Source: Thermoproteota archaeon (GTDB lineage: Archaea; Korarchaeota; Korarchaeia; Korarchaeales; Korarchaeaceae). From it: a stretch of DNA of 64,000 bases. Position 1 is the stretch's first letter. Every line of letters begins with the position of its first letter. The position numbers were made by a program, and so were the translations under genes. The notes below the pieces were generated by a model. The model was given only the letters and a program-made list of their open reading frames with translations, made no database searches and was not told the DNA's origin. The DNA lies in NCBI GenBank assembly GCA_027492205.1, contig JAOZFN010000007.1, positions 1-64,000 of the forward strand. The letters run 5' to 3'. This document shows positions 83 to 57,356 of the stretch, piece by piece.

Positions 83-2020
83 ATGGAGGAGGTCGGAGGC
101 TACGCGGGCAGGTACCTGGAGGTCGACCTCACCACGGGGAAGCACAGGGTGAGGGATACTCCCAGGGCGTGGATGAGGGACTACGTCGGGGGCACGGGGT
201 TCGCCGCCAGGTACCTCTGGGATCACCTCACTCCCGGGATAGATCCACTCGGCCCGGAGAACGTGATATTCTTCGGCACCGGCCCGGTGACCGGCACGCT
301 TGGGCACGCGACCGGTCGGCTGGTGGTAGCGTCCAAGGCGCCCCTCACCGGCATATGGGGCGAGTCCCACGTCGGCGGACAGCTGGCCCCCGAGATCAAG
401 TACGCCGGCTACGACTTCATCGCCATCACCGGCAGGGCGGAGAAGCCGGTGTATCTGTGGATAGACGACGATCACGTGGAGATCAGGGACGCCAGCCACA
501 TGTGGGGCAAGACCACGAGGGAGACCTTCAAGCTGATCTGGGAGGACGTGGGGGACGACAGCGTCCAGTCGGCGGTGATAGGTCCCGCTGGGGAGAGGCT
601 GGTGAGGTTCGCCAACGTCATGGTGGACTTCTACGACGCCGCAGGCAGGACGGGTATGGGGGCCGTGATGGGCTCCAAGAACCTGAAGGCCGTGGCGGTG
701 AGGGGGAGCAGGGGCATCAAGGTGGCCAACTTCGAGGAGTTCTACGAGGTCATCCAGCGCATATACGCCAAGGCCACCACCGGAGAGTGGAGGGAGATAG
801 CGAACGACACCATCAGGGGATACGGAACGCCCTACCTCATCGACGTCATGTACAGCATCGGCAGGCTCCCCACGAAGAACCACTGGACCGGAGTCTTCCC
901 GGAGGCGGAGAAGATAAACGGCGAGGCGCTTAAGGCCGTCAGGATAAGCCACAAGTCGTGCTTCTCCTGCTTCCTTCAGTGCAAGTACGTCCACCACGTC
1001 GACTCCGGCAGGTTCGCGTGCACGCTCACCGGCGGGCCCGAGTACGAGGCCCTGGTGTCTCTGGGGACCAACGTCATGATCAGCGACCTGGGGGCCATAA
1101 TACACGCGAACAACCTCTGCAACGAGTACGGCATGGACGTGATAACGGCCGGGAAGATCATCTCTTGGCTCATGGAGGTATACGAGAGGGGGCTCGTGAC
1201 GGAGGAGGACATCGGCGGCCTGAGGCCCAGGTGGGGGGACATCGACCTGGTCATCGACCTCCTCCACAAGATGGCCAGGAGGGAGGGTATAGGAGACCTC
1301 CTCGCCGAGGGCGCGCTCAGGGCGGCCAGGAAGATCGGGAAGGGCACTGAGAGGTACGTGATACACGTTAAGGGGCTGGAGGCGTCGGCGCAGGACGGCA
1401 GGAGCCACAAGTCCATAGGCCTCGCCCACGCCGTCAACGTGAGGGGCGCAGACCACCTCAGGGGTCTCTGCACCTACGACGAGCTGCCTTGGGCCGTGAA
1501 GTACGCCTATGAGAGGTTCGGCGAGGAGGAGGCTAAGAGGATGGTGATAGACGACAGGCTGGACCCGACGGGCAAGGGATACCTCACCTGGCTGACCGAG
1601 AACTTCTACTCCATCGTGGACTCGATGATCACCTGCAAGTACGGCGCCATGTGGCCGATGATCTACTACTACGACGACTTCGCCCCATGGCTGAAGGCCC
1701 TGACGGGGATAGAGGAGCTTGGAAGCGAGAGGAGGCTCGCCCGGGCAGGGGAGAGGATCTACATGCTCAGGAGGGCCTTCAACGCCAGGGAGGGGGTGGG
1801 CAAGGAGGCGGACACCCTCAACCCGAGGTTCACGGAGGAGCCCATGCCCGAGGGTCCGGGGAAAGGACAGGTGGTGGAACTGGACGTGATGCTCAGGGAG
1901 TACTACGAGTACCGGGGGCTCGACTGGGAGACCGGCTGGCCGAAGCGAAGCAAGTTGGAACAGCTGGGTCTGACCGACGTGGCTGAGGAGCTGGCCAGCC
2001 TGGGGAGGCTGGGGGAGTAG
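83..2020 (+). CDS. aor: Tungsten-dependent aldehyde:ferredoxin oxidoreductase (AOR family)
   Basis: The 645-residue length and sequence fit the AOR/FOR/GOR/WOR family. These enzymes oxidise aldehydes to acids with ferredoxin, using a bis-tungstopterin and one 4Fe-4S cluster. The N-terminal tungstopterin domain is recognisable (VGGTGFAARYLWD; GPVTGTLGHATGRL). The cluster ligands are Cys293-x2-Cys296-x3-Cys300, and Cys518 sits where the fourth ligand is expected. The start ATG is one base after the upstream stop. The substrate cannot be told from sequence; family members act on amino-acid-derived or sugar-derived aldehydes. The protein is expected in the cytoplasm, supplying reduced ferredoxin that the complex I in this window could use. 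The family assignment is firm. Confidence 0.95.
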   Translation: MEEVGGYAGRYLEVDLTTGKHRVRDTPRAWMRDYVGGTGFAARYLWDHLTPGIDPLGPENVIFFGTGPVTGTLGHATGRLVVASKAPLTGIWGESHVGGQLAPEIKYAGYDFIAITGRAEKPVYLWIDDDHVEIRDASHMWGKTTRETFKLIWEDVGDDSVQSAVIGPAGERLVRFANVMVDFYDAAGRTGMGAVMGSKNLKAVAVRGSRGIKVANFEEFYEVIQRIYAKATTGEWREIANDTIRGYGTPYLIDVMYSIGRLPTKNHWTGVFPEAEKINGEALKAVRISHKSCFSCFLQCKYVHHVDSGRFACTLTGGPEYEALVSLGTNVMISDLGAIIHANNLCNEYGMDVITAGKIISWLMEVYERGLVTEEDIGGLRPRWGDIDLVIDLLHKMARREGIGDLLAEGALRAARKIGKGTERYVIHVKGLEASAQDGRSHKSIGLAHAVNVRGADHLRGLCTYDELPWAVKYAYERFGEEEAKRMVIDDRLDPTGKGYLTWLTENFYSIVDSMITCKYGAMWPMIYYYDDFAPWLKALTGIEELGSERRLARAGERIYMLRRAFNAREGVGKEADTLNPRFTEEPMPEGPGKGQVVELDVMLREYYEYRGLDWETGWPKRSKLEQLGLTDVAEELASLGRLGE

Positions 2021-36676: not shown

Positions 36677-37618
36677 TTAACCCCCCGACTCGCCGCCGAC
36701 CAGCCTGCTCGGGACCCTGCCCCCCAGCTTCTCTACCAGCCTGCAGAACGAGCACACCTCCGTTCTGCTCGGGTAGCCGCACCTTGAGCACTCTCTGAAT
36801 CCCTCCATCTTCTCCCCCAGCAGGCCAGCCATTCTCGCCAGCTCCCTCATCGAGTCGACGAAGTTCACGATGCTGGTGGGCCAGAGCGAGCGGAGATCGT
36901 TGAGGAGGGGCTTTACGAGAGCCTGCTTGTCCTGGCCCTCGTGTGGGCACTTAGTGGAGCACCTCGGGGCTCCGGTGATCCTCACGTACGTCTCGGCGTC
37001 GGCGTCGCTGAGCCAGAAGAGGGGCCTCACCCTCCCGACCAGCTTGAGCTCGGGGATGGGCGGCGTGACCGAGTCGAGGGATCGAAGGTAGGCAAGGTTG
37101 TGGGTGATCATGTTGTTGAGGGCGAAGTAGGCCATGTCGTCCAGGTTGTGTCCCGTCGCGACGTAGTCGTAGCCCGCCTCGTGGGCCACCCTGTTAAGGA
37201 CGTACCTCGTAACCGTCCCGCAGACCACGCAGGCGAATGAGGGGTCGTCCGGCACCCTGATGGCGAGGTCGTCCCTCAGCGAGACGAGGTGCCTGCTGGC
37301 CCCGACTTCCGAGACCGCCCTCTCGAACACCTCGACGCACGCCTCGTTGCCCGGCACGCCCACATCTATCATTAGGGCCCCTATCTCCAGGGAGAACTCG
37401 TCGGCCATCTCCGCAAGCGCGTAGAGGGCTGCCACAGAGTCCTTCCCGCCGGAGACACCGACGAGCACCCTCTTGCCCTTGCCCACCCTCCTGAGGACCC
37501 TCCTCACCCTCTTCCTGAAGTACCTCAGGAAGTGCTCGGTGCAGACCCTACCGCCGAGGTTCGGGACGAAGTGCTCCCCGGGTCTCTCGCAGTACAAGCA
37601 GCGCTCGGTCGCCATCAT
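36677..37618 (-). CDS. ttuA: TtuA/Ctu1-type tRNA 2-thiolation enzyme
   Basis: 313 residues. The N-terminal zinc site has Cys7-x2-Cys10 and Cys26 with His29. The ATP-pyrophosphatase loop is LVGVSGGKDSVAALYAL. The catalytic cysteines are in ACVVCGTVTRY and RCSTKCPHEGQ. A C-terminal zinc site reads CSRCGYPSRTEVCSFC. The enzyme activates a tRNA uridine with ATP and replaces its oxygen by sulfur from a ubiquitin-like carrier. Targets are U54 in thermophiles or U34. It fits the tRNA-modification theme of this stretch with trm5. Confidence 0.93.
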   Translation of the reverse strand: MMATERCLYCERPGEHFVPNLGGRVCTEHFLRYFRKRVRRVLRRVGKGKRVLVGVSGGKDSVAALYALAEMADEFSLEIGALMIDVGVPGNEACVEVFERAVSEVGASRHLVSLRDDLAIRVPDDPSFACVVCGTVTRYVLNRVAHEAGYDYVATGHNLDDMAYFALNNMITHNLAYLRSLDSVTPPIPELKLVGRVRPLFWLSDADAETYVRITGAPRCSTKCPHEGQDKQALVKPLLNDLRSLWPTSIVNFVDSMRELARMAGLLGEKMEGFRECSRCGYPSRTEVCSFCRLVEKLGGRVPSRLVGGESGG

Positions 37619-37666: not shown

Positions 37667-38581
37667 CTAAGCCAGCCTCAGGAGCTTTGCGATCAGCGTC
37701 TTTAGGGCCCCTACGATAATGACCCGGGCCACCTTCCCGCTGGGGGCTATCCAATCCTCGGAACTGGCATCTTCGTCCATCTCAACGTTTAGCCCCTTGA
37801 ACAGCACGACGGGTATGCCCTCGTCGGCCTGCCCCATGAGCAGGGCCGCCGCGGCCGCGAGCTCGTCGGCCACGGAGTCGTCTCCCCCGAACTTTGGCCT
37901 TCCAAAGTAGTCCCTGGCCCCAAACCTCCTGCGGATCGGAAAGACGTTGGCGACCCCCACCGCCACGTCGATGGAGCCGATCTTCATGGGCTGGAACTCC
38001 GTGTCGGAGATCACGATCCCCACCCTGGCGCCCGTGAGTTCCCTTATGCGGTCGGCTATCTCTCGGGCCTCCTCATCCGGATCTGGCGGCAGCAGGCAGA
38101 CGTGGCCCTCGGGGCAGTTGGAGTAGTCCATCCCAGCGTCGATGAGGGTCAGCCCCCTGGCTCTCATGAGCAGGACGTCCCCGGCAGACTCCACCATCTT
38201 CCTGGCTTCTTCGGGGTCAACCGCGAACCTCTCCGGGAAGCCCGTCCCCCTGGCGGCCTTGGAGAAGGGCATGATGAACGCGAGGCTTCCCCTCTCCCTG
38301 ATCAGCTCGACCTCCCAGGGCTCTCGGCCTGTCAGCCACGCCAACAGCTTGCTCCTGATACTCGGCTTGACCTCCCCCGGCATCGCGACGTATCCCTTGG
38401 CGCGAGAGATCACCTTGCTCGCCACCACGAGCACATCTCCGTCCTCGAGTCTCTCTCCAACCTCACCTGCGGCCTGGACGATGAGCTCGGCCAGGTCATC
38501 TCCCTGCAAAACCCGAGGGAGTCTGAGCCCGATCATCCTGACATCCGCGGGGTGGGGATCCTCCTTGGAGGGAGATCTCAT
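37667..38581 (-). CDS. cofE: Coenzyme F420-0:L-glutamate ligase, copy 1
   Basis: 304 residues of the CofE/FbiB-N family, which add gamma-linked glutamates to F420-0 using GTP. Signatures are VLVVASKVISRAKGYVAM, VDPEEARKMVE, the metal-site string LIDAGMDYSNCPEGHVCLLP, RVGIVISDTEF and FGRPKFGGDDSVADELAAAA. A second copy lies at 55677. Each copy is divergent from a related membrane protein gene. It implies F420-dependent redox enzymes in this cell, although none is in the window. Confidence 0.92.
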   Translation of the reverse strand: MRSPSKEDPHPADVRMIGLRLPRVLQGDDLAELIVQAAGEVGERLEDGDVLVVASKVISRAKGYVAMPGEVKPSIRSKLLAWLTGREPWEVELIRERGSLAFIMPFSKAARGTGFPERFAVDPEEARKMVESAGDVLLMRARGLTLIDAGMDYSNCPEGHVCLLPPDPDEEAREIADRIRELTGARVGIVISDTEFQPMKIGSIDVAVGVANVFPIRRRFGARDYFGRPKFGGDDSVADELAAAAALLMGQADEGIPVVLFKGLNVEMDEDASSEDWIAPSGKVARVIIVGALKTLIAKLLRLA

Positions 38582-38686
38582 TAGGCGACGCGCTCTCGGC
38601 TCGGAATTTAATCTGACCGCGGCGTTTTTCCGGACAGGAGGGGTGAACGTAACAGCGGCCGGGTTCGAAAGCCTAACCGACCTATC

Positions 38687-38696
38687 ACTTTTATGG
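38687..38696 (+). promoter_or_regulatory. TATA box of the membrane protein copy 1
   Basis: ACTTTTATGG lies about 46-55 bases before GTG 38742, in the divergent intergenic region shared with cofE copy 1. Confidence 0.45.
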
Positions 38697-38741
38697 GGGG
38701 GCCTCGGGTGCCCGCAAAAGAAACCGTAGACGGGTGTTTAG

Positions 38742-40163
38742 GTGTTGAACGAGGAGGGTAGGGGCCTGCGGCTCTCAGTTCAGGAGGCCCTCGCTGCCAT
38801 CTGGATAGCCCTGGGGGCCATCGTCGTCGCCGCCACATCTCGCCAGTGGAGCTTCCGCCCCCTCACCCAGGCGGAGTTCCTCCTGAGGTTCATCGGCCTC
38901 CTAGGGGCAATGGCCTTCACTTCGCTCCTCTACACGGCCTGGAAGTCGAAGGTCGAGGCGCTACTGTCGGGGCACTGGAGGGGGGTCCTGGCGGGCCTGA
39001 GCGTGATGGTGATGTTCGGCTGGCTCGACGTGATAGAGACGGTCTTCGAGGTCCCGCCCATCTTGCACTTCTACAAGCTCGGGTGCACGGTGCTGGCAAC
39101 GTTCGTGGCTGGCTGGAGCCTCACGAGCTACCTGACCGACCTAACGAGTGGGCTCACAGCCAAGAGGGCGATCCCGCGGGTGGACCCCCTGCTGGTGCTC
39201 GTCGGCTGGCTCGCACTCTTGACCGCAGTGGTTATCGCCCAGAGGCCGTGGGAGTGGCCGACGATGCCCGAACCCAAGCTGGGGGAGGTCCCGTTCGACA
39301 TAATCAACCTGGCGTTTGACGCCGTCCTGGGCACGAGGCTCCTGCTGGAGTCGAGGAGGTCCGGCTATCCGGCCAGGTGGCTCCTGAGGTGCGGCTCCGC
39401 CGCCCTGTACCTGGGGGCCGCCGCCAGCGTCTTCACCACGCTGGACGACACGCTGATCATCCCCCGCATCGTGAGAATCGTCGGGGTGAGCGGGAGCGCC
39501 GCCGTGGCCCTGGGATTTGCGCTGGCCCTGGTCGCCTACTACCTGTACGGCACGACGGCCCTCAGGCCCACGCTCCCCGGAGTTGCCGGGCACTTAGGCC
39601 TGCCGGAGGTGGGGCCAATCAGGTCCAGGCGACCGGACGAGTGGAGCCGCCTGGGGACGTTCTCCGGGAGGGTCATCCTGTTCGAGGTCTCCACGATGAG
39701 GGGCTACGCCGATGCGCTCGAGGACCTGGCCTCCCACCTGAAGTCTAAGGGATACAGGATCGTGCTGATAGGGAGGAGGTCGTCCCCCGCGGCCCCCAAG
39801 ATTGCCAAGCACGCCTCTCTCACCCTCTACGTCTCCGCCGGCAGGATGGGACCGCCCAAGCAGGTCGGGGTGGGGGAATTCGAGATAGGGGCGGATCCGG
39901 CCGTAATCCTGGGGATGATATCCAGGGCCAGGGAGGAGGGCGACAGGCTGGCAGCGATCGTCGAGGACACCACCGGTCTGCTGGTTCTCCTGGGCGGAGA
40001 AAGCACATACCGGCTCCTCAGGGCGATGATCGACCAGCTGGCCGCTCACGATTCCGTGGTGGTGATGGTCCTGCCGCCGGAGGCCCACGACCCGAAGCTT
40101 GTCAACCTGCTGAGGAGCCTCGCCACGAACATAATCGACCTGACCGAGGGGGTGGAGGCGTGA
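38742..40163 (+). CDS. Polytopic membrane protein with cytoplasmic DUF835-like domain, copy 1
   Basis: 473 residues. About seven or eight hydrophobic helices cover residues 8-280. The soluble C-terminal domain (about 305-470) begins RVILFEVSTMRGYADALEDL. It contains GYRIVLIGRRSSPAAPKIAK, a V-S-A-G-R-M-G-P-P-K string and LAAIVEDTTGLLVLLGGEST, and ends in strands. This recalls the KaiC/RecA-like DUF835 domain of archaeal membrane sensors, though I give that only as a tentative match. The homologue at 54131-55549 shares the same layout and key strings (SPGRMAAPKE). It is divergent from cofE copy 1. Confidence 0.7.
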   Translation: MLNEEGRGLRLSVQEALAAIWIALGAIVVAATSRQWSFRPLTQAEFLLRFIGLLGAMAFTSLLYTAWKSKVEALLSGHWRGVLAGLSVMVMFGWLDVIETVFEVPPILHFYKLGCTVLATFVAGWSLTSYLTDLTSGLTAKRAIPRVDPLLVLVGWLALLTAVVIAQRPWEWPTMPEPKLGEVPFDIINLAFDAVLGTRLLLESRRSGYPARWLLRCGSAALYLGAAASVFTTLDDTLIIPRIVRIVGVSGSAAVALGFALALVAYYLYGTTALRPTLPGVAGHLGLPEVGPIRSRRPDEWSRLGTFSGRVILFEVSTMRGYADALEDLASHLKSKGYRIVLIGRRSSPAAPKIAKHASLTLYVSAGRMGPPKQVGVGEFEIGADPAVILGMISRAREEGDRLAAIVEDTTGLLVLLGGESTYRLLRAMIDQLAAHDSVVVMVLPPEAHDPKLVNLLRSLATNIIDLTEGVEA

Positions 40164-43060: not shown

Positions 43061-43825
43061 CTACCCTCCCCTCTCCCTCTCGAGGATGACGGCGGCCTCC
43101 AGTGCTGTCTTGATTGCCCTGTCTATGGCCTCGGCCCGCCTGGGGTCGTCCTGATCGACCAGACCACCCTCGCCCGTGCTGAGATTCGCAACGACGCCGT
43201 TGACTGTGCCCGCCTCCAGCCCGCGCAGGTGACTCACGACGAATATGGCGGAACTCTCCATGTCTAGGCTGATCACCCCTAGCTCTCTGAGCCCCTCTAG
43301 GTACTCGGGCGTCTCGGCGTAGAATGCGTCGTCCGAGCTGATAATGCCAATGTGGTGTTTGTATCCAAGCGACTCCGCCGCCCTCCTGAGGGCCAGGAGC
43401 ACCCTGAGGCTGGGAACAGCCGGGAATCCCTCGGGCACGTAGAAGTACGACGTCCCCTCGTTCCTCACGGCCCCGTTGGGTATGATCAGGTCGGCTATTC
43501 TCACGTGAGGCTGGAGCGCCGCGGAGGTGCCTACGCGGATGAACACCTCGGCCCCCACGTTCGCGAGTTCCTCCACGGCTATCGAGGCGGAGGGGCACCC
43601 TATCCCCGTGGAGGTGGCGGAGATCCTGACCCCCCTGTAGGTCCCCGTGACGGTCAGGAACTCCCTGTTGTGGGCCACTTCCTCGGCCTCGTCCATGTGC
43701 TCGGCTATCCTCCTGACCCTGCCCGGATCCCCGGGTAGGAGGACGTACCGGGCCACGTCGCCCGGCCTAACCTTGAGATGGTACTGCAGCCTCCCCTTGG
43801 AGACCTCCCTCTTGTCAACGGCCAA
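43061..43825 (-). CDS. Nucleoside phosphorylase (uridine phosphorylase-like), copy 1
   Basis: 254 residues from TTG 43825, which lies at the right distance from a TATA box; the longer open frame upstream is spurious. The phosphate-binding start reads ARYVLLPGDPGRVRRIAEHM. The catalytic core is SATSTGIGCPSASIAVEEL and FIRVGTSAALQPHVRIADLI. The ribose-binding end is ISLDMESSAIFVVSHLRGL. The enzyme cleaves nucleosides with phosphate to the base and ribose 1-phosphate. A divergent paralogue is at 56616. Confidence 0.88.
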   Translation of the reverse strand: MAVDKREVSKGRLQYHLKVRPGDVARYVLLPGDPGRVRRIAEHMDEAEEVAHNREFLTVTGTYRGVRISATSTGIGCPSASIAVEELANVGAEVFIRVGTSAALQPHVRIADLIIPNGAVRNEGTSYFYVPEGFPAVPSLRVLLALRRAAESLGYKHHIGIISSDDAFYAETPEYLEGLRELGVISLDMESSAIFVVSHLRGLEAGTVNGVVANLSTGEGGLVDQDDPRRAEAIDRAIKTALEAAVILERERGG

Positions 43826-51474: not shown

Positions 51475-52704
51475 TCAAGTTCGCACGGGAATGGTGGTGG
51501 TCCCCTCCGGCATCACCACGACCTTGGGATTTGAGAGCCCCCTCAGGGCCGCGTCGACCCCCTCCTGGAGGGAGGAGACCGGCTCCATCTTGTAGAGCCC
51601 CCTCACCTCTGCGGGATCCATAGAGGTCAGGAACAGGATCCTGTTCCTCTCCACGGCTCTAAGGTGATAGTAGGCCTTGTGACCCCCCAACTCGAACGTC
51701 CGCTTGAGGGCAGCCTCGACCTCGTCTGAGGAGGAGTACTTCCTCATGTACTCGACAAACTTCCTATTCCCCGCCCCGTCCCTGCACTCCGCGACGAACA
51801 CCACCGCCCCCCCTGGCTTTACGACCCTGAGGGCCATGTGAAGAGCCTTGTAGGCCTGGTAAAGGTCTACGTCGTGCGGGTATCCGTTGGCAGCAACGAT
51901 CACCACATCCGCTGGCTCCCCCTCGTACCTCACCTTGTACATGCGATCCACGACCCTCGCGCCGGCCCTGAGCACGTCCCTGTGGTGCCCGCCGTGCGCA
52001 GAGACTATCTCGTGCTCGGCGTTCTGCACCACGTTGAGCGTGAACTCTGCCCCGGCCATGTCAGCGGCCTCCTCCATGTCCTCGCTGACTGGGTTCCCGT
52101 CGAGGACGCCCACCTCGGCTCCCGGGAGGAACATCATCTTGTGGTTGGCCTGTATGGTCTCGTAGGAACTCACTCCCGGGAGTACGCTCTTCCTACCGCC
52201 GCCGTACCCGGCGAAGTAATGAGGTTCGACGTCGCCCAGGAGAATGCGGTAGTCCGCGGTCTGGTAGAGCTCGTCCACCGCGACGGGGGTGCCCCTGCCG
52301 GTCTCCCCGAGGTAGACGTGGGCCCCCCTGCAGTCGTGGCTGACCGCCTCGACGGTTCCGTGGTGCTTTCCCAGGATCTCCTTCGCCTCATCCGGGGAAA
52401 CGGGCCTGTGGGTGCCGGTTGCGAAGATCACCTTTATCCGGCCCCTGGGGACCCTCAGCCTCCCCAGCACGTGGTCCAGCATGACCTCGGTCGGGCAGGG
52501 CCTAGTGTGGTCGTCGACCACTATCACGACCCTGCCGGAGGGCTCCTCCTCCAGGCCCGGGCTCGCGGACTCCAGCGCCTCGGAGACGATCTCCCCTGCC
52601 TGGGCGTCAGGTTTGAGGGGCCTGGGGCGCAGCACGGTCACGTCCGCGGTCTCTGGTATCTCGGCGGAGACGAAGCCCCGCCCGTAGGGGAGTTCTATCC
52701 TCAT
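51475..52704 (-). CDS. larA: LarA-like nickel-pincer racemase family protein
   Basis: 409 residues from ATG 52704; the longer frame upstream is antisense to the deaminase gene. Signatures are VVIVVDDHTRPCPTEVMLDH, IFATGTHRPVSPDEAKEILG and, for the pincer-cofactor site, HYFAGYGGGRKSVLPGVSS with NHKMMFLPGAEVG. LarA racemises lactate with a nickel-pincer nucleotide; relatives act on malate, phenyllactate and other 2-hydroxy acids. No larB/C/E cofactor genes are in the window. Its promoter region is shared with the divergent deaminase. Confidence 0.9.
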   Translation of the reverse strand: MRIELPYGRGFVSAEIPETADVTVLRPRPLKPDAQAGEIVSEALESASPGLEEEPSGRVVIVVDDHTRPCPTEVMLDHVLGRLRVPRGRIKVIFATGTHRPVSPDEAKEILGKHHGTVEAVSHDCRGAHVYLGETGRGTPVAVDELYQTADYRILLGDVEPHYFAGYGGGRKSVLPGVSSYETIQANHKMMFLPGAEVGVLDGNPVSEDMEEAADMAGAEFTLNVVQNAEHEIVSAHGGHHRDVLRAGARVVDRMYKVRYEGEPADVVIVAANGYPHDVDLYQAYKALHMALRVVKPGGAVVFVAECRDGAGNRKFVEYMRKYSSSDEVEAALKRTFELGGHKAYYHLRAVERNRILFLTSMDPAEVRGLYKMEPVSSLQEGVDAALRGLSNPKVVVMPEGTTTIPVRT

Positions 52705-52726
52705 CGCGTTCCGCGTGTCGGTCGGT

Positions 52727-52736
52727 GGATAAAACG
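52727..52736 (-). promoter_or_regulatory. TATA box of the larA-like gene
   Basis: Minus-strand CGTTTTATCC lies 23-32 bases before ATG 52704. Confidence 0.55.
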
Positions 52737-52768
52737 TTTTGACGGACCGAGGTCCGCCTCGGCTGAAG

Positions 52769-54094
52769 ATGACCAGGCTGAACGTGGACCTCCTGGTGCT
52801 GGCCTCCGCAGTGATCCCCGTCGACCCGCCAGGGCTCGTGATCCGAGATGGGTACGTGGCCGTCGAGGGAGGTAGGATTGTCTCAATCGGCAGGAGGTCA
52901 TCCATGCCGCCCGTCTCCGCAGGGGAGGTCGTCGAGGGGAGGGGCATGGTCGCCCTACCCGGCCTGGTAAACGCCCACACTCACGTGGCCATGACCCTGC
53001 TGAGGGGGCTCGCCTCCGACAGGCCGCTGGACGAGTGGCTCAGGGAGATATGGAGGGTAGAGGCCAAGATGGGTCCAGAGGAGGTGCTAGACGGCGCGAG
53101 GCTGGGGATATTGGAGATGCTCCTCTCAGGAACAACCACCTTCTCAGACATGTACTTCCACGAGGACTCGGTGGCCAGGGCCGCTCTGGAGTCCGGGGTG
53201 AGGGCAGTCCTTTCCTACGGGATGATAGACGCCCCGGGCTGGGAGAGGGATCCGGACAGGACCGTTAAGGAGCTCAGGGAGGCCGAGAGGTTCATAGAGG
53301 ATTGGCACATGGCTGGCGCCGGCAGAATAAGGGCGGCAGTGGGTCCGCACGCCCCGTACACGTGCTCTGAGGAGCTCCTACGCGCCTCCGCCGAGCTCGC
53401 CAGGTCCAGGGGTCTGAGGCTCCACATACACCTCTCCGAGACCAGGAGGGAGGTTGAGGAGCTCAGGGAGATAGCTGGGGAGGGGCCCCCCTCCTACCTG
53501 GACTCCCTCGGGGTGCTGGGACCCAACGTCCTGGCGGCTCACGGGGTCTGGCTCGACCGGGAGGAGATCTCACTCTTGGCCTCCAAGGGGGCGAGCGTGG
53601 TCCACTGCCCGGCCAGCAACCTGAAGCTGGCGTCCGGCATCGCCCCGGTGGCCGACATGCTCAGGGAGGGGGTGAACGTCGCCCTGGGGACCGACGGCCC
53701 GGCCAGTAACGACTCCCTCGACATGTTCAGAGAGATGCGCCTTGCGGCCCTCCTCCAGAGGGGGAGTAGGCTCGACCCGAGGGCGCTGACCTCCTGGGAC
53801 GTGCTCAGGATGGCGACCGTGAACGGGGCGAGGGCGCTGGGACTCGCCGATGAGATCGGAACGCTGGAGGCCGGCAAGCGGGCCGACCTAATCTTGGTGG
53901 ACCTCAGGAAGCCCCACCTCTCCACTCACAGGGACCCGGTACCGGCGCTGGTCTTCTCTGCCACCGGCGACGACGTGGACACGGTGATAATCGAGGGGAG
54001 GGTGATTGTCAGGGCCAGACGGGTAATGACGATGGACGCGGAGGAGGTGGTGGAGCGGGCCTCCCGGGCCGCGACGAGGCTCGCATCCGGCTGA
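52769..54094 (+). CDS. S-adenosylhomocysteine/methylthioadenosine deaminase family amidohydrolase
   Basis: 441 residues from ATG 52769 (an ATG ten codons earlier is less likely). The metal site is His70-x-His72 (LVNAHTHVAM). Further signatures are AVGPHAPYTCSEELL, LHIHLSETRREVEEL, LAAHGVWLDREEI, VVHCPASNLKLASG and ALGTDGPASNDSLDMF. Members deaminate SAH, MTA or 5'-deoxyadenosine to the inosyl form. In archaea this starts nucleoside salvage from SAM reactions, and radical SAM enzymes nearby would produce 5'-deoxyadenosine. Confidence 0.93.
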   Translation: MTRLNVDLLVLASAVIPVDPPGLVIRDGYVAVEGGRIVSIGRRSSMPPVSAGEVVEGRGMVALPGLVNAHTHVAMTLLRGLASDRPLDEWLREIWRVEAKMGPEEVLDGARLGILEMLLSGTTTFSDMYFHEDSVARAALESGVRAVLSYGMIDAPGWERDPDRTVKELREAERFIEDWHMAGAGRIRAAVGPHAPYTCSEELLRASAELARSRGLRLHIHLSETRREVEELREIAGEGPPSYLDSLGVLGPNVLAAHGVWLDREEISLLASKGASVVHCPASNLKLASGIAPVADMLREGVNVALGTDGPASNDSLDMFREMRLAALLQRGSRLDPRALTSWDVLRMATVNGARALGLADEIGTLEAGKRADLILVDLRKPHLSTHRDPVPALVFSATGDDVDTVIIEGRVIVRARRVMTMDAEEVVERASRAATRLASG

Positions 54095-54130: not shown

Positions 54131-55549
54131 TCAGGCCAACTTCTTGATCTCGGGTGGGTATCGCGTGGCGTTAATGACCCAAGTGGCGAGGCCCCTTATC
54201 AGGTTCATCTCCCGATCGCCGTGGGCGCCTCGGTTCACTACGAGCACTACCACGGCCCTCTCCGGGATTAGCATGTCTATGAGGGCCCTGATCAGGCGGT
54301 AGGCCCCGTCCAACCCGATGAGAGTGGTCATATCGCTGACGTTCTCCACCACGAGCGACATCCTCTTCTCGGGCGTGATCAACCTGCTCACGATCCCCAG
54401 GATCACGGATGGGCTCAGGCCCACCTCCAGCTCGCCCGGAGACAGCTCCTTAGGCGCGGCCATCCTGCCGGGGCTGACCCGGATAGTCAGGTCAGACTCC
54501 GACGCCACCTCCCTCAGAGGGGTACCCCGCCTAGCGATCACCACGATCTTCATGTCGAGCTCCCTAAGCCACGACACTAGGCTGGCTATCATCTCCGAGG
54601 GAGATGTCAGAGGCTCGAACTCCATCAGAATAACCTCGCCCTCTCCTCCGACGTCCAGGCCAAACTCCCTCCAGTCAATCTCCGGTCCACCCTCCCCCTC
54701 CGTGTGGGGGGGCTCCCTATATGGCGTGGTTCCCAGCAGATAATAGCCGAACCCGGATATGGCCACCCCAAGAGCGATGGCTCCCGTGAGAGTGTAACCG
54801 AAAACGTTCATCGTCTTTGGGGTGAGGAACAGGTCCTCGAACATCACGTAGAGTTCCGCCACCGCGCCAAGTGCCATCGAGGTCATGGAGGCCTCGACTA
54901 GCCACCTGCCAGCCCCTGTGACCGTCCCCAGGGCTTTGGTGAGCCTCCACAGGTTCGCGGCGAGCACGCCCGCGATCGCTATGTCCAAGGTGAGGTCCAG
55001 ATACCTCGGCCGTGGGAGCGGCCCGATGTACCGAAGCGACCACGCGGTGACTGAGATCAGCACAGCTAGCCACGCTGCGAAGATCCAGGTCGGTCGAACC
55101 CTGGGGACCCCCCTCTTGGCGGTCACTAGGGAGGCCAGCCTGGCCATTATCGACGTGAGTGACCAGGAGCATATCCCCACCGAGATTAGGATCGTGAGGA
55201 GTTCCATCACGTGCACGTACTCAGGGAGGACGAAGGCCGAGTCGACGAGTTCGATGAGCAGGAAGTATACCAGGAGTGCCTGCCCCCAGGTGAAGTACTT
55301 CCAGTCCCTCCAGAGAAGGGCCTCCAGCCTCTGCAGCACGATGAAATACAGGATGATGAGGGCCATACCAGCCGCCAGGAGCCCCACGGCCCTGCCGAGG
55401 AAGCTCAGCGGGTCGACATTCTTCGGCACCCAGTCCCCCGTGCTCTCCAGCAGCACGATCGTGGCCAAGATCACCCAGACAAGCGACGCAATCTCTGGTA
55501 TGTTTGTGCTGGAAGCGGAAAGGGCGTGAGACCTCGGGGACATTTTCAA
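54131..55549 (-). CDS. Polytopic membrane protein with cytoplasmic DUF835-like domain, copy 2
   Basis: 472 residues, nearly the same length as copy 1 (473). About eight helices lie in residues 15-275, and a soluble domain follows from about 305. That domain reads EVILMEFEPLTSPSEMIAS, DMKIVVIARRGTPLREVASE, TIRVSPGRMAAPKELSPGEL and MSLVVENVSDMTTLIGLDGA. Copy 1 has matching blocks in the same order. It is divergent from cofE copy 2, mirroring the arrangement at 38 kb. Confidence 0.7.
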   Translation of the reverse strand: MKMSPRSHALSASSTNIPEIASLVWVILATIVLLESTGDWVPKNVDPLSFLGRAVGLLAAGMALIILYFIVLQRLEALLWRDWKYFTWGQALLVYFLLIELVDSAFVLPEYVHVMELLTILISVGICSWSLTSIMARLASLVTAKRGVPRVRPTWIFAAWLAVLISVTAWSLRYIGPLPRPRYLDLTLDIAIAGVLAANLWRLTKALGTVTGAGRWLVEASMTSMALGAVAELYVMFEDLFLTPKTMNVFGYTLTGAIALGVAISGFGYYLLGTTPYREPPHTEGEGGPEIDWREFGLDVGGEGEVILMEFEPLTSPSEMIASLVSWLRELDMKIVVIARRGTPLREVASESDLTIRVSPGRMAAPKELSPGELEVGLSPSVILGIVSRLITPEKRMSLVVENVSDMTTLIGLDGAYRLIRALIDMLIPERAVVVLVVNRGAHGDREMNLIRGLATWVINATRYPPEIKKLA

Positions 55550-55676
55550 CCTCCTCCCGCGCTCCCCTTCGACCCGTCAGGTCCATTCATAGTGAGAACC
55601 GAACACCACGAGCGCTTGTATGTAGAAGGCAAACCGGCTAATAGTCTTGGCGTCTAATCAGGGGGGAGGATATTTC

Positions 55677-56573
55677 ATGTCTAATCCGGGTGGGAGGATT
55701 GAGTTAATTGGGTTGAGGCTCCCGGAACTCAGGCAGGGAGACGATCTCCCGAGTGTGATCCTCTCCGCGATCGATTCCATGGGAATCGAGCTCAGTGACG
55801 GCGACGTGTTGGTGGTAGCCAGCAAGGTGGTCTCCAAGGCGAAGGGCCACTCAGTGCGGATCTCTGATGTGAAGCCTTCCCTCAAGTCCAGGATCTTGGC
55901 CAGGATAGCGGGCAGGCCGGCCTGGCTCGTGGAGCTCGTCAGGAGCGTCGGGAGGATCGTGCTGATACTTCCCTTCTCGGAGGCAAGCAGGGGGACCGGC
56001 TTCCCGGAGGAGTTCTCCCCGGACCCGGAGGCGGCGAGGGCTATGGTCGAGGAGGAGGGGGGGACGATACTGGCCGAGGTGGCCGGAGTCGTGATCACGG
56101 ACGCAGGGATCGACTGGTCCAACTGCCCGGAGGGTGTGGCCGCGCTCCCTCCCCCCGACCCAGACGCCGAGGCCCGGGAGATAGCGGAGCGCATCAGGGA
56201 GCGGACGGGGGCCAGGGTCGGGGTGGTGATCTCGGACACGGACTTCGCGCCGTTCAGGATGGGCTCCGTGGACTGGGCCGTGGGCGTCTCCGGAATCGAT
56301 CCCGTGAGGAGGTCTTTCGGGGAGCCAGACCTCTATGGGAAGCCCAAGTTCGGGGGCGTGGACCTCGTGGCCGACGAGCTCGCGGCAGCGGCCGCCCTCC
56401 TCATGGGGCAGGGGTCCGAGGGAATCCCTGCGGTGCTCGTCAGGGGGGCGCCGGTGACGCTGAGCGACGACGCCAGGTACTCCACGGTTACGGCCCCGGT
56501 CTCCAACATGGGCAGGGCGTTCCTCAAGGGACTCCTGAAGACGGCCCTCGCCAAGATTCTAAGGCTCGTCTGA
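55677..56573 (+). CDS. cofE: Coenzyme F420-0:L-glutamate ligase, copy 2
   Basis: 298 residues from ATG 55677, preceded by GGGGGGAGG. Motifs match copy 1: VLVVASKVVSKAKGHSVRIS, VITDAGIDWSNCPEGVAALP, RVGVVISDTDFAPFRMGSVD, KPKFGGVDLVADELAAAAAL. It also ends like copy 1 (TALAKILRLV versus TLIAKLLRLA). The metal-site Tyr of copy 1 (GMDYSN) is Trp here (GIDWSN). Differences may reflect another acceptor or another number of glutamates added. Confidence 0.9.
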   Translation: MSNPGGRIELIGLRLPELRQGDDLPSVILSAIDSMGIELSDGDVLVVASKVVSKAKGHSVRISDVKPSLKSRILARIAGRPAWLVELVRSVGRIVLILPFSEASRGTGFPEEFSPDPEAARAMVEEEGGTILAEVAGVVITDAGIDWSNCPEGVAALPPPDPDAEAREIAERIRERTGARVGVVISDTDFAPFRMGSVDWAVGVSGIDPVRRSFGEPDLYGKPKFGGVDLVADELAAAAALLMGQGSEGIPAVLVRGAPVTLSDDARYSTVTAPVSNMGRAFLKGLLKTALAKILRLV

Positions 56574-56615: not shown

Positions 56616-57356
56616 GTGCCGGTCCTCGACTTCCTGCCGGCGGAGGGGGACGAGCCCATAATAGACCCATACGAGCTGAGGGTTGACTGGCTGGGGGGAG
56701 GTTCGGCCGTCATCGCCCTGACCCCCAGGATCTTTAGGCTCGCCGCCGAGACCCTCGGGGCGACCCCGGAAGGGTGCCGGGCGGCCGGGTGCTTGGAGAG
56801 GTTCCACTTCGAGGGCATCCCATTTCTGCTGGCCTACTTCGGGGCGCCGGCGGCCGCAATGCTGCTGGAGGTCCTGGCGGCAAGTGGGGCGAAGAGGATC
56901 TTGGTCCTGGGAGAGGCGGGCTCCATATCACCCGATGTTGGGATTGGGGACGTGGTGCTGCCGGAGTGGGCCATCAGGGAGGAGGGAACGAGCTATCACT
57001 ACCTGCCGCCTGAGAGGGTCCCCCTCGCCGACCCAGAGATGATCGAGGCCCTGGAATCCTCGCTCGGAGGGTCGGGCGTAAGGGTGCTGAGGGGCGGGGT
57101 CTGGACCACCGACGCGCCGTTTCGCGAGACCGTCGGAAAGGTTCGAAGGTACTCTCTGCTCGGGGCCCTGGCGGTTGAGATGGAGTGCTCTGCCCTGATG
57201 GCGGTGGCGGAGTTCAGGGGGGTCAGGCTGGCGGCCGGGCTAGCGATTACCGACGAGCTGTTCGAGGGGGTCTGGAGGGCGCGGTTCTCATCGCGCAAGG
57301 TAGACAGGTCTCGGAGGGCGCTCGCGAAGGCCGCGGTCGAAGTGCTCTCGCCTTAA
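56616..57356 (+). CDS. Nucleoside phosphorylase family protein, copy 2
   Basis: 246 residues, start GTG 56616, 42 bases after cofE copy 2. The fold is that of uridine/purine phosphorylases: FLLAYFGAPAAAMLLEVLA, ILVLGEAGSISPDVGIGDVV, AIREEGTSYHYLPPERVPLA and AVEMECSALMAVAEFRGV. The usual phosphate-binding GDP motif near the N-terminus is replaced by ALTPRIFRL, so the substrate or activity may differ from copy 1. Confidence 0.82.
   Translation: MPVLDFLPAEGDEPIIDPYELRVDWLGGGSAVIALTPRIFRLAAETLGATPEGCRAAGCLERFHFEGIPFLLAYFGAPAAAMLLEVLAASGAKRILVLGEAGSISPDVGIGDVVLPEWAIREEGTSYHYLPPERVPLADPEMIEALESSLGGSGVRVLRGGVWTTDAPFRETVGKVRRYSLLGALAVEMECSALMAVAEFRGVRLAAGLAITDELFEGVWRARFSSRKVDRSRRALAKAAVEVLSP

Follow-up and report, generated by a model that had tools for sequence, protein, structure and literature searches.

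Known Relatives of the Ligase and of the Membrane Protein

The closest described relative of the ligases considered here is CofE of A. fulgidus (PDB 2PHN/7ULD; model TIGR01916), in the structures of which Gly153-Cys155 and, from the partner subunit, Arg234 hold the deazaflavin (PMC10861534). A second member of COG1478, the chlamydial protein CT611 (FolC2; model TIGR04132), complements E. coli folC (PMC1971073); it resembles the present ligases in belonging to this group and in coming from a genome that lacks F420 synthesis. The membrane protein encoded beside the ligases is best compared with iKaiC-type proteins such as P. horikoshii PH0250 (PDB 2EKD), which carry DUF835 or DUF7504. DUF835 has been listed as an inactivated KaiC output domain of archaeal signalling proteins (PMC5847659).

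The window, i.e., the whole stretch of 64,000 nucleotides that was analysed, is contig C9 of a korarchaeal genome (G000; 1.94 Mb, 96% complete). Two further genomes are used repeatedly for comparison: G001, a sister species of the same genus, and G004, a third species that belongs to another genus of the same family. The G000 genome contains four genes of the CofE family, and two of these lie in the window, each next to a gene for a membrane protein.

Two Mirrored Gene Pairs

All four open reading frames were located where the initial annotation had placed them (Table 1), and its description of two mirrored, divergent pairs proved to be right: in both pairs the genes are arranged head to head, and the two blocks are mirror images within the window. 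The ligases are 57% identical over 290 aa (E 5e-110). The membrane proteins are also homologous, as had been proposed, with 32% identity over 463 aa in a full-length match (E 8e-72). At the DNA level, the repeat between the blocks is still recognisable in just 353 nt of the ligase gene, with 72% complementarity, which indicates that the duplication is old. Both pairs are also present in the sister species, and comparison with it gave dN/dS values of 0.07–0.30 for all four genes, which are thus under purifying selection.

Table 1. Genes and intergenic regions of the two pairs, their immediate neighbours, and the pterin-linked cluster found elsewhere in the family.
Feature	Position	Strand	Description
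TtuA/NcsA-like PP-loop ATPase	36677..37618	-	48 bp behind CofE-L copy 1
CofE-L copy 1	37667..38581	-	304-aa long-form COG1478/PF01996 ligase; CofE according to TIGR01916
Divergent intergenic region, pair 1	38582..38741		160 bp; nearly identical in sister species G001
Membrane partner 1	38742..40163	+	~8 predicted transmembrane helices (residues 13-271)
Membrane partner 1, C-terminal part	residues ~300-470		Putative P-loop-less KaiC-like (DUF835/DUF7504-type) domain
Membrane partner 2	54131..55549	-	Full-length homologue of partner 1 (32%)
Divergent intergenic region, pair 2	55550..55676		
CofE-L copy 2	55677..56573	+	298 aa from ATG 55677; ORF opens at TTG 55647
Nucleoside phosphorylase-superfamily gene (AMN-like)	56616..57356	+	42 bp behind CofE-L copy 2
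MptE-like/CofE-family/DHPS-like cluster	L054:6864-9746, L056:7944-10754, L057:7992-10718, L041, L042, L040, L043, L034		

The second ligase probably starts at the ATG, behind the ribosome-binding-like GGGGGGAGG, and not at the upstream TTG; the likely start of the second membrane protein is the ATG at 55543. A scan for bacterial-type promoters and terminators around pair 1 gave no matches. The genes directly behind the two ligases, the TtuA/NcsA-like ATPase for copy 1 and the phosphorylase for copy 2, are possible operon partners.

It had also been suggested that a nucleoside phosphorylase paralogue, at 43061 and at 56616, follows each block as a shared flank. The two genes occupy non-equivalent positions, the first being on the far side of the membrane gene in copy 1 and the second on the far side of the ligase in copy 2. 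Inclusion of a phosphorylase in the duplicated block was rejected, as the two proteins match at 31% over 129 aa only and fall into different subfamilies.

A Separate Clade of the CofE Fold

Both window ligases score 188–198 bits against PF01996. They also exceed the curated cut-off of the CofE equivalog model TIGR01916 (201.6 and 194.9 versus 180.65 bits), so that an automatic pipeline would call them CofE. They belong, however, to a separate clade of about 300-residue proteins, here termed CofE-L, of which only one of eight other members tested with TIGR01916 lies above the cut-off, with several just below. A profile built from the window-type proteins gives at least 260 bits for CofE-L and at most 212 for other CofE relatives. 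When the same profile was run on 398 genomes of the phylum, the corresponding limits were at least 225 and at most 177 bits, and the scores just below the gap came from broken or contig-edge fragments. In a maximum-likelihood tree of 27 rows, CofE-L forms one clade with a support of 100/99, and its members come from Korarchaeia, Bathyarchaeota, Desulfurococcales, Chloroflexota and Acidobacteriota-group records.

The predicted structure of CofE-L superposes on A. fulgidus CofE (2phn) with a TM of 0.87 and an E of 1.4e-27, which indicates the same fold. The two share Asp109, Ser111, Asn112, Asp150 and Thr151 (A. fulgidus numbering is used throughout). CofE-L differs from the A. fulgidus enzyme in three common traits: about 28 residues inserted into the chain, the block DLYG[RK]PKFGG, and an extended C-terminus, which is modelled as a long helix (residues 281-303). 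The initial annotation had read the difference between GMDYSN in one window ligase and GIDWSN in the other as a change around the metal site. This reading was dropped; the Asp, Ser and Asn of the motif are the same in all of the 49 long CofE-like proteins, and A. fulgidus CofE itself has GIDASN.

CofE-L is a distinct and mostly overlooked group, for which no description was found in a literature search, and the existence of this clade is the stronger result, beyond the point that the window ligases do not serve F420 synthesis. Proteins with the changed pocket described below are carried by approximately 30 of the 398 sampled Thermoproteota genomes, in addition to Chloroflexota and Acidobacteriota. 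Since the standard annotation model calls the window proteins F420 ligases, genomes that are unable to produce F420 are credited with a part of its pathway.

Loss of the F420 Contacts and Absence of CofD and CofH

To compare the binding sites, 49 CofE-L sequences were aligned to A. fulgidus CofE, of which 43 are non-redundant. The catalytic and metal-region residues Asp109, Asp150 and Thr151 were kept in 43/43. The contacts to F420 were not: Gly153 is found in 3/43, Arg154 in 0/43 and Arg234 in 2/41. In 19 other, shorter CofE relatives, these three residues are retained in 17, 18 and 16 sequences, respectively. Intact catalytic residues together with a changed substrate pocket imply an amide-linked metabolite that is as yet undescribed.

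The three genomes with the gene pair also lack CofD and CofH, which would supply a CofE with its substrate. CofD (TIGR01819) was found neither in G000, G001 and G004 nor in any other genome of the family that was searched, including G005, G019 and G023, although the same search returned strong matches in outgroups and controls. No match to CofH (TIGR03551) was obtained in G000, G001 or G004. Across phyla, 48 genomes with CofE-L were inspected; CofD is complete in eight, present as a sub-threshold fragment in one and absent from 39. Most of these are draft assemblies, so the absence of CofD from any single one carries little weight; in four genomes without CofD (G396, G540, G656 and G646), however, the contig that carries the CofE-L gene is as large as a chromosome or nearly so.

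An alternative is that CofE-L is a true CofE that acts on F420-0 obtained from neighbouring organisms or made by an unrecognised CofD. The scores of the window copies above the TIGR01916 cut-off and the intact catalytic residues would fit, and the eight genomes that do contain CofD speak against a function outside F420 synthesis. This explanation is nevertheless highly improbable, as CofD and CofH are absent, the F420 contacts are lost throughout the clade and most CofE-L genomes across phyla have no CofD. The lack of F420 synthesis and the loss of the F420-binding residues suggest that the ligase belongs to a distinct group and probably couples an amino acid to a different molecule. The window "cofE" genes are paralogues within the CofE-L clade, and their products are most likely not F420 ligases. 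The missing CofD and CofH, the lost contact residues and the separate clade give good support to the earlier proposal that the genes serve "not merely F420 synthesis", and indeed to a stronger form of it than had been put forward.

Standard-Sized Relatives and a Pterin-Linked Cluster

The standard-sized CofE relatives of the same family form a clade of their own in the tree. Their genes adjoin those of an MptE-like pterin diphosphokinase (PF01973) and a DHPS-like pterin-binding enzyme (PF00809), and the CofE relative sits between the other two. The cluster was identified by Pfam and BLAST in G000, G004 and G005, and by BLAST alone in G003, G007, G008, G010 and G011. CofD was found in none of these eight genomes, and Gly153, Arg154 and Arg234 are lost in these relatives as well. 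In this family, the fold of CofE thus appears to have been recruited for other substrates. Because of the pterin gene neighbours and the precedent of chlamydial FolC2, the natural reading of the MptE-linked protein is that of a candidate archaeal pterin glutamate ligase, and the korarchaeal cluster offers a direct candidate for such an enzyme in archaea.

This raises the question of whether CofE-L could be a second ligase of the folate/pterin type, similar to FolC2, that adds glutamate to a tetrahydropterin C1 carrier. Such a role has a precedent within COG1478 in the complementation by CT611, and the genes of the sister clade in this family are flanked by MptE-like and DHPS-like genes. However, the existence of that clade lowers the likelihood of a pterin role for CofE-L itself, since the pterin-linked job in G000 is already taken by the copy on contig C7 (L054). 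CofE-L also differs from FolC2 in falling into a different clade and in having no folate or pterin neighbours: no pterin gene was found in any of the CofE-L neighbourhoods inspected. The folate model TIGR04132, moreover, gives the window proteins only 60.0 and 69.6 bits against a cut-off of 350. A FolC2-like function for CofE-L thus appears unlikely.

The fourth CofE-family gene of G000 (L055:8273-9651, contig C6) is very divergent and overlaps a DUF359 gene, which we take to belong to the GTP-dependent dephospho-CoA kinase family.

The Membrane Partner and Its Linkage to the Ligase

The model of the membrane partner, which has a moderate mean pLDDT of 74, shows approximately eight transmembrane helices followed by a putative KaiC/RecA-like domain. 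At this quality of model, the best PDB match is PH0250 (2ekd; E 5.5e-4, TMt 0.57), and KaiC and FlaH are matched as well. The predicted C-terminal domain would resemble those of the iKaiC-type proteins in lacking a P-loop, and no Walker A motif was found in the membrane partner sequences. Unlike those proteins, the partner has about eight transmembrane helices in front of this domain, no response-regulator domain, and Pfam scores that remain below the gathering thresholds (PF05763, 20.4 versus 33.1; PF24336, 22.7 versus 27). A sequence search of the PDB with the membrane family gave no matches.

The initial annotation held that CofE and the DUF835-like protein form a conserved module. The pair was found at 5 of 49 CofE-L loci, which belong to three genomes from two genera of one family; no DUF835-type neighbour was seen at the other 44, some of which are on short contigs. 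Support for a conserved module is thus no more than weak. The pair does recur once outside the genus, in G004, where the ligase and the membrane gene are 8 bp apart, but there they are tail to tail (convergent) and not divergent. The comparison of trees that had been proposed as a check for co-evolution gave discordant topologies. The ligase tree places the G004 protein as sister to both window copies (100/98), whereas the membrane tree joins its partner to another paralogue (93/97). Forcing the paired membrane proteins into one clade was rejected by the AU test (p 0.005 for the full-length set and 0.036 for all sequences), a result to be read with caution in view of the long branches.

The linkage may also be incidental, in which case a local duplication would have copied two unrelated neighbours and the adjacency in G004 would be a coincidence. 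The 44 loci that lack such a neighbour point in this direction, as do the different orientation and membrane paralogue in G004. The estimated chance of the G004 adjacency is only about 1.4% if 8 DUF835-type loci and approximately 1,150 genes are assumed, a figure that was weighed both for a coincidence and for a real linkage. Against this, the pairing has been kept in both copies through deep divergence (57% and 32% identity). Furthermore, among the genomes searched, the three that contain this CofE-L subclade are also the ones with DUF835-type membrane proteins (approximately eight loci each in G000, G001 and G004), and four other family members have none. Coincidence is a real possibility, somewhat on the doubtful side, and a functional link of the ligase to the membrane protein is possible.

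Proposed Mechanism

CofE-L would most likely retain the GTP- and metal-dependent amide-ligase chemistry of A. fulgidus CofE. With GTP and two divalent metals, the carboxylate of the substrate would be activated by conversion to an acyl phosphate, and attack by an amino acid, most likely L-glutamate, would then give an amide; the carboxylate would be one other than that of F420-0. We infer both the amide-ligase activity and glutamate as the co-substrate. Duplication of the gene pair, in its divergent arrangement, took place in the common ancestor of the genus, and both copies were kept. The membrane protein would most plausibly act as a membrane anchor or as a regulator that responds to signals and controls the ligase or its pathway, although a regulatory link is speculative. 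Taken as a whole, an amide ligase outside F420 synthesis with the membrane protein as its anchor or regulator is favoured, with some reserve. A bolder version is that CofE-L produces a new cofactor, lipid or signal molecule that is amide-linked and probably glutamylated, and that the ligase is gated or localised in Korarchaeia by a KaiC-like receptor bound to the membrane. This is rather doubtful; a ligase/receptor pair of this kind, if true, would be without a described precedent.

Gene Neighbourhoods of CofE-L

Assigning a function to CofE-L from its neighbours was abandoned, as no conserved neighbourhood was found across phyla when approximately 45 loci were compared. Genes for radical SAM proteins, amidohydrolases and phosphorylases recur in a few lineages; since these are common families, their excess near CofE-L is weak and may be due to chance. 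The nucleoside phosphorylase gene behind copy 2 has counterparts near CofE-L at L076/L126. A TtuA/NcsA-like ATPase also lies beside CofE-L in a second genus (L050:10715-11599, G005), and is 31% identical to that of the window. A lipid-related cluster (TetR, patatin-like, KAS III) accompanies CofE-L at L082:288-6865 and L086:4483-10596, which are two closely related Acidobacteriota-group records, and was matched in only 1 of 297 genomes of the phylum. Amidohydrolase genes are found near CofE-L in several lineages (window 52739-54094, L076, L126 and L129); the one in the window adjoins a gene for a nickel-pincer racemase-like LarA homologue (51475-52980).
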